This document shows positions 1,923 to 6,229 of a DNA stretch of 6,577 bases, piece after piece. The first letter of the stretch is position 1; the number at the start of each line of letters is the position of its first letter. Source of the stretch: Candidatus Tectimicrobiota bacterium (lineage in GTDB: Bacteria > JACPSX01); contig JACPSX010000009.1 in assembly GCA_016193065.1 (NCBI GenBank), positions 1 to 6,577 of the forward strand. The letters run 5' to 3'. The notes under the pieces were generated by a model, which was not told where the DNA came from, did no database searches, and saw nothing but the letters and a program-made list of their open reading frames with translations. Made by a program: the position numbers and the translations under genes.

Positions 1923-4340
1923 TCAGTCCCCTCCTATGACATGGCCAAGGCGCGTGAGGGCCTCTTCGATGGCCGTCCACTGCGCTTGGCCGTTGCGCAT
2001 CGTCACCACCACTTGCTTCGTTTGAGGATCCCCCTCCACCGCTACCACGGCCGGCAGCCTTCCGAGGGTCTCCTGGATTTTGGTCACGCACCCCTGACAG
2101 TGAATGCTAGGGACCCTGAGCGTCACCCGCCGGACCGCCGCTGGAGGTTTTCCGTGCCGGGGCACCAGACGACCCCCGAAGGAGTTGAGCATGACCGCCG
2201 TCACGCTGGCGGCCATGGCCGCCATGGCCCAGGCCGGAGCGACCAGCCCGGTTGCGGCCAGGGGGACGCCCACGCCGTTGAAGCTGAACGCTATGGCCAG
2301 ATTCTGCACTGTCTTCCGGTAAGACCTCCGGGCGATGTGGTAGGCGTCCACCACGGCGGTGAGGCGCTCCCCTACCAGAACAATGTCCGCCGACTCCATG
2401 GCGATGTCCGTGCCCGAGGCCATGGCAAGCCCCACGTCGGCCTGCATCAGAGCCGGGGCGTCGTTGATCCCGTCCCCAACCATGGCCACCCGTTTCTCCT
2501 CACGCTGGAAAGCCCGCACCCTCTCAGCCTTCTCCTGGGGAAGGACCTGAGCCAGGACCTCGCGGATCCCGACCTGCCCTGCCACCGCGCGCGCGGTTCG
2601 CTCATTGTCTCCAGTGATCATGACCGGCTCCATCCCGGCGCGGCGCAGCCCGGCAACGGCTTCCGCCGCATCCTCCTTTACCGCGTCGGCCAGAACCATG
2701 AGCCCGGCAGCCCGATCATCCACCGCCACGGTAATCACGGTCCCCCCTCGGGCTTCGCGCTCCGCGGCCGGTTCGGAGAGCGCATCGGTCGTGACGCCCA
2801 ACTCGGCAAGGAACCGCAGGGTTCCCACCAACACCGGTCTCCCCCCCACCACAGCGCGAATCCCCTTTCCTGCGACCGCTTCAAAGTCCTCCACCCGGTC
2901 CAGCGCCAGGCCCCCACTCTTCGCCCTTCCGACGACCGCGCGCCCCAGCGGATGTTCGGAGACCTGCTCGGCGGAGGCGGCCAGGGCGAGAAGCTCGTCG
3001 CTCTTCCATTCGTTCAGCGGCAAGACCTCAACCACCTGAGGCTTGCCGTGGGTAATCGTGCCGGTCTTGTCCAGGACAACAACCCAGACGTCTTTGAAGG
3101 CCTGGAACGAAGCCGCGCTTCGCATCAGGATCCCTTGCCGGGCGGCCTCTCCCCCGCCGCGGATCATGGCGAGCGGCGTTGCCATGCCGAGGGCGCAGGG
3201 ATACCCCATCACGAGCACCGCCAGGGCCGCAAACCCGGCGCGGTCCCAATCGGGAAGGCCAAAGAGAATCCACCCGCCGAGCGTCCAGAAGAAAAAGGCG
3301 GCCGCTCCCACCGCAAGGACTCCGGGAACGAAGTACACGAGAATGCGGTCCAGGAGAAGAAGTATCCCGGGCTTGAGCGCTCGCGCCTCCTGGATGTGAC
3401 GGGCCACCTGCCGGAGAAAACTCTCCTCGCCCACTTTGCTCACACGGACGAGCAGGGTCCCGGAGTGGTTCACCGACCCGCCGATCACCTCCTGGCCCGG
3501 AAGCTTCTCCCGCGGTATGGACTCACCGGTGACCAGACTTTCGTCGACGGCTGAGATCCCCTCCTCCACGACCCCGTCCACCGGGATCTGCTCGCCGGGG
3601 CGGATGCGGACCCGATCGCCCCTCCGGACCTCCTCGATCGGCAGATCCACCTCGCTCCCATCCCTCACTACCCGGGCCGTCGGGGGCTGCAGCGACAGGA
3701 GCTTCTTCACCGCCTGGGAGGAGCGAGTCCTGACCAGGAGTGAAGCGTAGTTACCCAGTAGGTGATAGGCTGTGACGAAGACTGCCACCCCAAAGAAATC
3801 CGGGCTGGGGAACAGCGGATGGACGAGGCCGATCGCTCCTCCGAGAAGTCCGCCGAAAGCTGCGACCTCCATGAGGACGTGCTGGTTCAGGATACGGCGC
3901 CGGGCAGAAGCCCAGGCCATCTTCAGGAAATTTAGACCGAGACCGAACACCATCAGGAAAGCCAGGATCGTCAGGATCCAGAGGGTCCAGGGGTGGGGGC
4001 GGCCAGACCACATGAGGAACATCGCCATGAAAGCCACCCAGGCTGCGGCCCCCGCGATGATCAGGCGGTCGCGCTCCCGCCGGAGCTCTGCTTCCTCCTC
4101 CTCGAAGGTCCGGATCTTGTCGGGGTCCCGCACCGTATAGCCCAGGCTCTGAAGCGTCCCCGTGAGCGTGACACTTTTCACGCGCTTCGGGTCGTAGGTG
4201 ACCAGGGCCTCCTCGTGAGCCAGGCTCACATGGACGCCCGCCACACCCTCGATCCTTCCGAGCCCCTTCTCGATGGTCGCCGCGCAGAAAGAGCAGCCCA
4301 TCCCGCCGATCTTGACCTGAAGCTTCGCCGTGGACATCAT
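1923..4340 (-). CDS. P1B-type heavy-metal-translocating ATPase, CopA-like, with HMA domains at both ends and a YPC motif
   Basis: The 805-residue product (numbered from the ATG at 4340) is an ATP-driven metal exporter of the inner membrane. An N-terminal HMA domain (about 6-75) carries GMGCSFC with C16 and C19. A second HMA domain is at the C-terminus (about 738-801) with HCQGC, C748 and C751. Between them lie eight predicted helices, the actuator TGES (271-274), the phosphorylation site DKTGT (D424), the P1B HP dipeptide (H463-P464), TGDN (576-579) and GDGIND (622-627). The transport helix reads MGYPCALGMATP, so Y380-P-C382 replaces the CPC of Cu(I) ATPases. The YN of helix 7 is FN (687-688), and the MxxSS of helix 8 is MAASV from M709. 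The catalytic parts are intact, so the protein should pump, but its metal is uncertain: Cu(I) is likely, not shown. GAGG sits 5 nt before ATG 4340 and 8 nt before an adjacent ATG at 4337; either may be used. A TTG 27 nt further upstream has a poorer site. A MerR remnant precedes it and a coupled DUF7482-like gene follows. Confidence 0.93.
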   Translation of the reverse strand: MMSTAKLQVKIGGMGCSFCAATIEKGLGRIEGVAGVHVSLAHEEALVTYDPKRVKSVTLTGTLQSLGYTVRDPDKIRTFEEEEAELRRERDRLIIAGAAAWVAFMAMFLMWSGRPHPWTLWILTILAFLMVFGLGLNFLKMAWASARRRILNQHVLMEVAAFGGLLGGAIGLVHPLFPSPDFFGVAVFVTAYHLLGNYASLLVRTRSSQAVKKLLSLQPPTARVVRDGSEVDLPIEEVRRGDRVRIRPGEQIPVDGVVEEGISAVDESLVTGESIPREKLPGQEVIGGSVNHSGTLLVRVSKVGEESFLRQVARHIQEARALKPGILLLLDRILVYFVPGVLAVGAAAFFFWTLGGWILFGLPDWDRAGFAALAVLVMGYPCALGMATPLAMIRGGGEAARQGILMRSAASFQAFKDVWVVVLDKTGTITHGKPQVVEVLPLNEWKSDELLALAASAEQVSEHPLGRAVVGRAKSGGLALDRVEDFEAVAGKGIRAVVGGRPVLVGTLRFLAELGVTTDALSEPAAEREARGGTVITVAVDDRAAGLMVLADAVKEDAAEAVAGLRRAGMEPVMITGDNERTARAVAGQVGIREVLAQVLPQEKAERVRAFQREEKRVAMVGDGINDAPALMQADVGLAMASGTDIAMESADIVLVGERLTAVVDAYHIARRSYRKTVQNLAIAFSFNGVGVPLAATGLVAPAWAMAAMAASVTAVMLNSFGGRLVPRHGKPPAAVRRVTLRVPSIHCQGCVTKIQETLGRLPAVVAVEGDPQTKQVVVTMRNGQAQWTAIEEALTRLGHVIGGD

Positions 4341-4547: not shown

Positions 4548-5750
4548 CTAGGATGCCAGGCCCGCCAGGTAGTGCTCCGCCGCCAGGGCGGCCTTGCAGC
4601 CGTCGCCTGCGGCCGTAACCGCCTGCCGGAAGCGATGATCAAAGGCATCTCCCGCAACGAATACTCCCCGCACGGAGGTCTGGGGAAATTCCTTGCTCAC
4701 CATATAGCCTCGCTCATCCATCTCCAGTTGTCCCTTGAAGATGGATGTATTAGGCTCATGCCCGATCGCGACAAATACTCCCTGACAGAAGAGGTCCTTC
4801 TCCTCAAGGCTTTTTCTGTCCACGATTCTGATCCCTGTTACTCCCTTCTCATGAGAACCGTAGATCTCTTTCACCTCGGTATTCCAGAGAAAGCCGATCT
4901 TCTCGTTCTTGAACGCCCTTTCCTGCATGATCTGGCTCGCCCGGAATTTGTCTCGTCGGTGGATTACCGTCACCCTGGACGCAAACTTACTTACGGAAAG
5001 GGCCTCCTCCAGGGCAGAATCTCCGCCTCCCACAACCGCCACCTCTCTATCCTTGAAGAAGGGGCCGTCACAGGTGGCGCAGGTGGAAACCCCATATCCG
5101 CGGAGCTCCCGCTCTCCCTTAGCGCTCAGCTCGCGTGGCGAGGCCCCTGTGGCGATGATCAGAGCATCAGCGCGAAGATTGCAGCAGTCCGAAAGCTCAA
5201 TAAAAAAGGGCCGTCGGGAAAGGTCAACCGAGACGGCTTCTGCGGTGATAAATTGCGTGCCGAATTTTTCCGCCTGCGCCCTCGTTCTCTGCATCAGCTC
5301 CGGCCCTTGCACTCCGTCGGGAAATCCCGGATAGTTTTCTACGAGCGTCGTGGTAAAAAGCTGTCCCCCGGGGTCGCGACCTTCAACCACTATAGGCTTA
5401 AGGCCTGCCCGAGCAGCATAGATGGCCGCAGTGAGCCCTGCCGATCCTGAACCGACGATGACCAGCCGGGTCCGGATCTCCGTGGGCTTCGCCTTGAGCC
5501 CCAGAAGCGGGTCCAGCTTGCCGCTGTTGGCCAGGTCCCGCAGATCGTCGAAGCCGCCGATCAGCTCGCCGTCGATGAAGATCTCCGGCACGGTCTTTCT
5601 CCCCTTGGAGCGCGCGAGCATTTCCTGGAGCCTTTCGGGACTTTCCTCCACGTTGATTTCCGTGTACTCCTGCCCCTTTTCCCGGAGGAGTTCCTTGGCC
5701 TTCTGACAGTAGGGGCATTCCTTCTTGGTGTAGATTTCTATCCGCGGCAT
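4548..5750 (-). CDS. glutaredoxin-thioredoxin reductase fusion protein
   Basis: This 400-residue soluble enzyme joins a glutaredoxin to a low-molecular-weight thioredoxin reductase. Residues 1-85 are glutaredoxin: the CPYC active site (C12, C15), the cis-proline loop TVPEIFIDG (53-61) and GGFDDL (65-70). A short linker (about 84-93) leads to the FAD motif VGSGSAG (99-105), GGQ at 128-130, the redox pair CATC (C224, C227), the NADPH motif GGGDSA (241-246), HRRDKFRASQ (264-273) and the C-terminal FAD motif GDAFDHRFRQAVTAAGDG (367-384). All catalytic residues are present. The likely reaction is NADPH to FAD to CATC to the attached CPYC, giving a self-contained disulfide or glutathione-mixed-disulfide reductase. 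It might still reduce free thioredoxin. GGGGGAG lies 7 nt before the ATG. The protein is about the sum of a glutaredoxin and a roughly 310-residue TrxB, so nothing is truncated. It has its own leader region behind a strong terminator and sits upstream of the metal ATPase, which suits a role in metal or oxidative stress, though this link is inference. Confidence 0.94.
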   Translation of the reverse strand: MPRIEIYTKKECPYCQKAKELLREKGQEYTEINVEESPERLQEMLARSKGRKTVPEIFIDGELIGGFDDLRDLANSGKLDPLLGLKAKPTEIRTRLVIVGSGSAGLTAAIYAARAGLKPIVVEGRDPGGQLFTTTLVENYPGFPDGVQGPELMQRTRAQAEKFGTQFITAEAVSVDLSRRPFFIELSDCCNLRADALIIATGASPRELSAKGERELRGYGVSTCATCDGPFFKDREVAVVGGGDSALEEALSVSKFASRVTVIHRRDKFRASQIMQERAFKNEKIGFLWNTEVKEIYGSHEKGVTGIRIVDRKSLEEKDLFCQGVFVAIGHEPNTSIFKGQLEMDERGYMVSKEFPQTSVRGVFVAGDAFDHRFRQAVTAAGDGCKAALAAEHYLAGLAS

Positions 5751-5905: not shown

Positions 5906-6229
5906 TTACTTTACACTGTTGTTCACGTTTCCGGACGTCACCGCACCCACGGCCAGGGTCAGAAGGTTCCCCACCCCGAGGAAAAGAGGCACCGGAGAAG
6001 TGATCTCCCGGTCCAGCCTCGCCTGGGCGATGCTCCCGGGGGCCCGATCCGGGTCCGCCGGAGCAGCAGGCTCAGCCGTCGCGAAGGAGACCGCCGGGGA
6101 GTTGATCTCGCGGTCTAGTCTCTCCTGGGCGAGGCTGCCGGCGGTCGCACCGGCGGTGGAAACCCCCAGGATCAGGACCGCCACCGAAGCCAAACCCGTC
6201 AGAGCCTGCAGAACTGTGTTGATCTTCAT
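5906..6229 (-). CDS. small exported protein with a duplicated RLDREI motif, unknown
   Basis: The 107-residue product has a Sec-type signal: a basic start (MKIN), a hydrophobic core at about 7-23 and a likely cleavage site after AGA (26-28). The mature part of about 79 residues carries the same 15-residue motif twice: GSLAQERLDREINSP (31-45) and GSIAQARLDREITSP (65-79), joined by an Ala/Pro-rich linker (46-64). A weakly hydrophobic, Gly-rich tail (80-100, LFLGVGNLLTLAVGAV) might associate with the membrane, and the end is NVNNSVK. There are no cysteines and no recognised domain. GGAGGT lies 9 nt before the ATG. It follows an anti-sigma factor gene by 78 nt with no terminator between, and a strong terminator follows it, so the two are probably co-transcribed. 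Small exported proteins next to ECF (extracytoplasmic-function) sigma/anti-sigma genes are often targets or modulators of that system; for this one it is only a suggestion. I do not recognise the family. Confidence 0.8.
   Translation of the reverse strand: MKINTVLQALTGLASVAVLILGVSTAGATAGSLAQERLDREINSPAVSFATAEPAAPADPDRAPGSIAQARLDREITSPVPLFLGVGNLLTLAVGAVTSGNVNNSVK
6002..6141. repeat. 38-bp imperfect direct repeat inside the exported-protein gene
   Basis: The segments 6002-6039 and 6104-6141 align without gaps, with about seven mismatches over 38 bp, and start 102 bp (34 codons) apart in the same frame. They encode the two GS(L/I)AQ(E/A)RLDREI(N/T)SP motifs. Several differences are silent or conservative, which points to an internal duplication kept at the protein level. 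Confidence 0.75.

Follow-up and report, generated by a model that had tools for sequence, protein, structure and literature searches.

A widespread clade of YPC-type P1B ATPases with an altered metal site and an association with mercury-resistance genes

The window (the whole stretch of DNA analysed here, 6,577 bases) is a complete contig (C258; own-genome match 100%) of a draft genome (2.9 Mb, 294 contigs). Its main gene, on the minus strand, encodes a P1B-type ATPase in which the CPC motif of the transport helix reads YPC. Table 1 gives the genes around it and the residues discussed below, numbered from the ATG at 4340.

Table 1. Genes of the window and residues of the ATPase metal site.
Feature	Positions	Strand	Remarks
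Truncated SenA/EgtB-like enzyme	3–1193	minus	cut by contig end
DUF7482 protein, N-terminal membrane segment	1373–1921	minus	PF24298, 94 bits; next gene after the ATPase
YPC-type P1B ATPase, 805 aa	1926–4340	minus	stop codon 1923–1925; ATG at 4340
Second HMA domain, C-terminus (HCQGC)	1935–2135	minus	second Pfam HMA match
MAASV (M709–V713), helix 8	2202–2216	minus
M706-A-A-M709-A-A-S712-V713	2202–2225	minus	MxxSV, not MxxSS; extra Met706
F687-N688, helix 7	2277–2282	minus	FN, not YN; F 98% in the clade, Y 100% in CPC pumps
MGYPCALGMATP, Y380 and C382 of the transport helix	3174–3209	minus	Y380 codon 3201–3203; C382 codon 3195–3197
His193, fourth transmembrane helix (CopA M2)	3762–3764	minus	in all clade members; absent from the CPC set
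Q153-H154, in place of the Cu entry-site Met-Asp (Met158 in AfCopA)	3879–3884	minus	clade versus CPC comparison
C16-S-F-C19 (CSFC), N-terminal metal-binding domain	4284–4295	minus	invariant in the 48-sequence family alignment
MerR-family regulator remnant, 35 codons	4349–4456	minus	first and last few codons joined, middle missing
Glutaredoxin-thioredoxin reductase fusion	4548–5750	minus	TIGR01292, 387 bits (cut-off 343); TIGR02181, 108 bits (cut-off 90)
Repeat protein	5906–6229	minus	no family match

The ATPase scores 566 bits against TIGR01525 (cut-off 346) and 460 bits against the Cu ATPase model TIGR01511 (cut-off 397), and contains the Pfam domains E1-E2_ATPase, Hydrolase, and HMA. An N-terminal metal-binding domain (GMGCSFC) is followed by the P1B core and by the second HMA domain; of the 79 members of the YPC family that were checked, 34 end in a Cys-x-x-Cys tail of this kind. 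The AlphaFold model (mean pLDDT 86) shows strands and helices in this C-terminal region (736–802). It matches the inward-facing E1 structure of AfCopA (7r0g) with a Z of 31 and 3.1 Å over 634 residues, so the residue equivalences to AfCopA used below are sound. All the catalytic motifs are intact: TGES (271–274), DKTGT (424–428), HP (463–464), TGDN (576–579), and GDGINDAP (622–629). The fold, an HMA domain, xPC, TGES, DKTGT, HP, and GDGxND, which together define P1B heavy-metal ATPases, are thus all present. Shuffled sequence yields promoter-like and terminator-like sites at least as often as the region upstream of the gene.

The DUF7482 protein downstream of the ATPase accompanies YPC pumps repeatedly: homologues occur in 25 YPC loci, in nearly all of them on the strand of the pump, and they share invariant residues (H60, S64, M75, Y98, W137, and others). 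The gene directly upstream of the ATPase region encodes the glutaredoxin-thioredoxin reductase fusion; at the equivalent place, locus L182 has a small thioredoxin-like frame. The frame between the fusion gene and the ATPase reads MPEARLKISELGRRAGVCPHIEASRG. Its two parts, MPEARLKISELGRRAGV and CPHIEAS, match both ends of the full MerR proteins encoded beside YPC pumps in L080, L087, and L182, the nearest relatives of the window locus. The remnant therefore consists of two joined MerR ends, and the regulator gene has lost its middle, whether in the organism itself or during assembly.

There is no mercuric reductase (MerA) on the window contig, which ends after its 6,577 bases. Another contig of the same genome (C46; L138, 1–4936) ends inside the C-terminus of a MerA (TKLSCCAV). 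By inspection, this is followed by two small membrane proteins resembling mer transporters and, further on, by a small repeat protein and a pair made up of an ECF-like sigma factor and a zf-HC2 protein. Small proteins built of PDRAPGSIAQARLDREINSP repeats are encoded both in the window and, on this mer contig, at 3144–3554 of L138 (minus strand); the 5′ side of the window carries a paralogue of the C46 repeat protein, together with a zf-HC2 protein. Although the contig end cuts it short, the enzyme at the other end of the window reaches 418 bits against SenA, the model of selenoneine synthase (cut-off 420), compared with 289 bits against EgtB. A selenium–mercury link is possible for this SenA-like enzyme.

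The subgroups of P1B ATPases are defined by the residues of their metal sites, and the transported metal is known for most of them. In AfCopA, the entry and high-affinity residues are M158, C380, C382, Y682, N683, M711, and S715 (PMC9433437), and these correspond to residues 153, 380, 382, 687, 688, 709, and 713 of the window ATPase. The preliminary description had read YPC, FN, and MAASV alongside conserved catalytic motifs, and the alignments place these changes at 380–382, 687–688, and 709–713. They are not the only ones. YPC is invariant within the clade described below (48-sequence alignment), where position 713 is Val in 95% of the sequences (Ser in 100% of the CPC pumps) and position 706 is Met in 99% (Ala or Gly in CPC pumps). 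At the entry point, positions 153 and 154 are Gln (100%) and His (98%) in the clade versus Met (97%) and Asp (68%) in CPC pumps. His193, at a position where CPC pumps carry Ile, Val, or Leu, is found too in divergent relatives from Sulfolobales and Hymenobacter. Ser17 and Phe18, within the CSFC motif, are rare in CPC pumps, and two further positions are diagnostic of the clade relative to the CPC set: Ser200, in place of Glu, and R394.

The window pump thus shares its architecture, fold, and catalytic motifs with the P1B-1 Cu(I) ATPases (AfCopA, E. coli CopA, LpCopA, ATP7B), and it keeps four of their site residues (C382, N688, M709, and S712). However, it has YPC for CPC, FN for YN, Val for the second Ser of MxxSS, and Gln with an adjacent His for the entry Met, so that CPC, YN with MxxSS, and the entry Met, by which P1B-1 Cu(I) pumps are recognised, are all missing. 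The clade adds to this the invariant His193, Met706, and the CSFC metal-binding domain. The P1B-2 pump ZntA shares with YPC pumps the efflux ATPase fold and regulators of the divalent MerR type. In contrast, it has CPC, a Lys in helix 7, and an Asp in helix 8, none of which occurs in the window pump: the corresponding columns hold Asn688 and Met709. The loss of one Cys, one Tyr, and one Ser from the copper site might indicate an ATPase that no longer transports metal, perhaps a regulatory one. This is highly improbable, because neither the catalytic motifs nor the new site residues vary between hosts of great diversity, which argues for strong selection on transport.

With a degenerate DNA pattern for YPCALG[LIM]ATP, for which we estimate about one chance match in the whole collection, we scanned about 85,000 species, each represented by a single genome. 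The scan returned at least 117 YPC loci in Bacteria and Archaea, all but a few of which encode recognisable P1B ATPases. Their hosts include haloarchaea, Chloroflexi, Methylomirabilota/Rokubacteria, Proteobacteria, Actinobacteria, Gemmatimonadetes, and Asgard archaea, among others. The motif is thus no slip of sequencing or assembly restricted to one contig. Among the matches listed, FN and MxxS[VI] accompany YPC, with rare exceptions, in the members that reach helices 7 and 8. The control pumps from the same genomes have CPC in 36 of 36 non-redundant full-length sequences, and YN with MxxSS in all 35 whose helices 7 and 8 could be read.

The 92 YPC/FN sequences form a single clade free of intruders in the tree of 608 columns from which the trait columns had been removed (SH 0.996), and this rules out scattered independent changes. 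With the trait columns kept, the same clade is recovered among the P1B-1 copper pumps, and the window ATPase adjoins its Rokubacterial members. The clade lies outside the proven Cu(I) pumps sampled. These results bear out the earlier suggestion that YPC, FN, and the lost second serine mark one coherent, recurring subfamily. Judged by its residues and its tree, the YPC/FN/MxxSV group is a large, previously unnamed P1B-1-like clade, i.e., a variant of P1B-1. The annotated members that we saw bear only the names of heavy-metal or cation-translocating ATPases. The same suggestion had called the subfamily uncharacterised, but the motif itself had already been noted in a verified copper-resistance ATPase of Sulfolobus solfataricus (PMC4541151).

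The genomes encoding YPC pumps are rich in MerA, which we called above its curated cut-off. It was present in 34 of 49 genomes of a first set, whose 50 loci were picked after some MerA neighbours had been seen, and in 23 of the 50 genomes of a second set made of the remainder. Together, this amounts to about 57 of 98 distinct YPC genomes, versus 13 of 290 broad bacterial relatives. Among 292 haloarchaea, drawn evenly, MerA was found in 17 of 27 genomes with a YPC pump and in 18 of 265 without (Fisher p = 1e-11; here and below, counts and p-values ignore shared ancestry and are descriptive, not phylogenetically independent). The two genes are also close to each other: in 16 of the 17 haloarchaea with both, the listed coordinates put MerA within about 5 kb of the YPC ATPase. 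In the genomes of the first set with MerA, half of the YPC sites (18 of 36) were at most 10 kb from it, compared with 3 of 54 CPC sites (p = 1e-6).

Matched neighbourhoods (up to 8 kb on each side; 48 YPC and 41 CPC pumps) show the same difference. MerA was found in 17 of the YPC and 1 of the CPC neighbourhoods, MerR-family regulators in 26 and 5, small HMA proteins in 27 and 8, and DUF7482 in 10 and none. CsoR showed the opposite pattern, with 0/48 against 8/41. The recurring neighbours of YPC pumps are thus those of the mer operon (MerR, MerT, MerP, MerA, MerB), with regulators of the mercury type, and not the CsoR or CueR of P1B-1 copper pumps. Annotated plasmids show this gene by gene. In Haloarcula (pNG600), Halobacterium, and Salinigranum, merA adjoins the pump, and genes for a small HMA protein and a winged-helix regulator belong to the same cluster. 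The pumps of Cytobacillus, Afipia, Paraburkholderia, and Cupriavidus occur together with genes for a regulator, thioredoxin, CcdA, and HMA proteins, and with mer genes (merR/merT/merP, merA, or merB). In six Proteobacterial loci (L020, L046, L099, L111, L125, and L131), the gene immediately upstream of the pump gene codes for an unannotated protein that is about 500 residues long and whose start resembles a signal sequence; the copy of L020, which was the one scanned, matched no Pfam or NCBIfam family.

The association of the YPC clade with mercury resistance is strong and apparently unreported. Literature searches for the YPC/CPC motif in P-type ATPases, and for mer operons with CcdA and a P-type ATPase, returned no paper, and two papers on mercury resistance make no mention of an ATPase (PMC8261052, PMC3466566).

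The regulators encoded next to the pumps leave some room for other metals. By inspection, most MerR-family neighbours of YPC pumps keep the first metal-ligand Cys, a residue common to MerR, ZntR, and CadR but missing from CueR, which senses Cu(I). Such regulators are about equally similar to ZntR, CadR, and MerR, and His193 and H154 add nitrogen ligands to the pump; both features would suit a broad pump for divalent soft metals (Zn, Cd, Pb, Hg) standing in for ZntA. We find this reading improbable: the helix 8 site is without the Asp that ZntA has at the position of Met709, the sequence is closest to copper pumps and not to ZntA, and the genome of the window already encodes a separate ZntA-like pump (L004).

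Another alternative is a pump for Cu(I) or Ag(I) with altered affinity. In that case, the YPC site would still allow low-affinity transport of copper or silver, and the gathering of metal-resistance genes on mobile DNA would account for the association with mer. The window ATPase exceeds the cut-off of the Cu ATPase model, and copper genes lie beside some YPC loci (e.g., copK and a multicopper oxidase in Cupriavidus), which also counts against a mercury pump. Yet the CPC pumps of the same genomes are far less often linked to MerA; CsoR neighbours belong to CPC and not to YPC pumps; and YPC genomes usually hold separate CPC pumps. We therefore regard copper or silver as rather unlikely substrates of the core clade, even though the verified ATPase of S. 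solfataricus uses YPC.

That pump deserves a closer look. The copTMA pumps of Sulfolobales read CPC, and two of these genomes (L254, L258) encode a second pump with YPCAIGF, H154, and H193. The CopB domain structure 2iye gives 255 bits to the Sulfolobales YPC pump versus 121 bits to the copTMA CPC pump; the related entry 2yj4, which we take to be from S. solfataricus, is titled CPx-ATPase CopB-B. The Sulfolobales YPC pump hence matches the CopB structure, and we rejected the CopA of copTMA as the YPC pump of S. solfataricus. S. solfataricus CopB is described as a low-affinity copper exporter and is reported to be linked to silver, so YPC alone does not exclude the transport of copper or silver. 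The Sulfolobales pumps resemble the clade in YPC, a CSFC or CAFC domain, H154, H193, M706, and M709. They differ from it in keeping YN, in Glu at 153 and Leu at 713 (MxxSL), and in their identity of only about 33%, and they branch outside the core clade, albeit with a weakly supported placement; these differences, too, count against a copper or silver role of the core clade.

We think it somewhat probable that the YPC/FN/MxxSV pumps are efflux P1B ATPases serving mercury resistance, which most likely carry Hg(II) out of the cytosol. The predicted substrate would be Hg(II) and perhaps other very soft thiophilic ions. The preliminary description had suggested that the pump may prefer another metal, or coordinate its metal differently, and named no metal; the neighbourhoods point in that direction and suggest mercury. 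Transport would presumably be outwards, since P1B pumps export. The CSFC domain would receive the metal from an HMA protein or from thiols of the cytosol. The metal would then move past an entry point where Q153 and H154 replace Met, and would bind at a one-cysteine site made of C382 with N688 and M709, before leaving past His193 and Met706. A site reduced to one Cys fits the chemistry of Hg(II), because a bis-thiolate complex would be nearly irreversible and would hardly release the ion; a single Cys may avoid this trap. Glutaredoxin/thioredoxin and CcdA partners would hold the thiols reduced. It is conceivable, although we remain slightly doubtful, that the clade is a dedicated Hg(II)-exporting P1B class of Archaea and Bacteria, in which the two-Cys site gave way to one Cys plus an invariant His, such that mercury could be bound and yet released.

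In classical mer systems, Hg(II) is imported and directed to MerA. An exporter next to MerT and MerP therefore looks partly futile, which speaks against Hg(II) export. Many YPC genomes (27 of the 50 in the second set) lack a detectable MerA, so the pump is not tied to mercury reduction, which likewise weighs against the mercury reading. The pump may act beside MerA reduction or in place of it.

The YPC clade combines a clear residue signature, a wide host range, and a genomic link to mercury resistance. If this link were causal, mercury resistance would have an ATP-driven efflux arm that is absent from the accounts cited above (PMC8261052, PMC3466566), and the one-Cys site would provide a testable rule for pumping an ion that binds thiols almost irreversibly. 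The CopB-type pump of S. solfataricus would serve well to test the extent to which function has shifted. In L254, an HxlR regulator and an HMA protein adjoin the pump of this type, as they do in some archaeal YPC loci.
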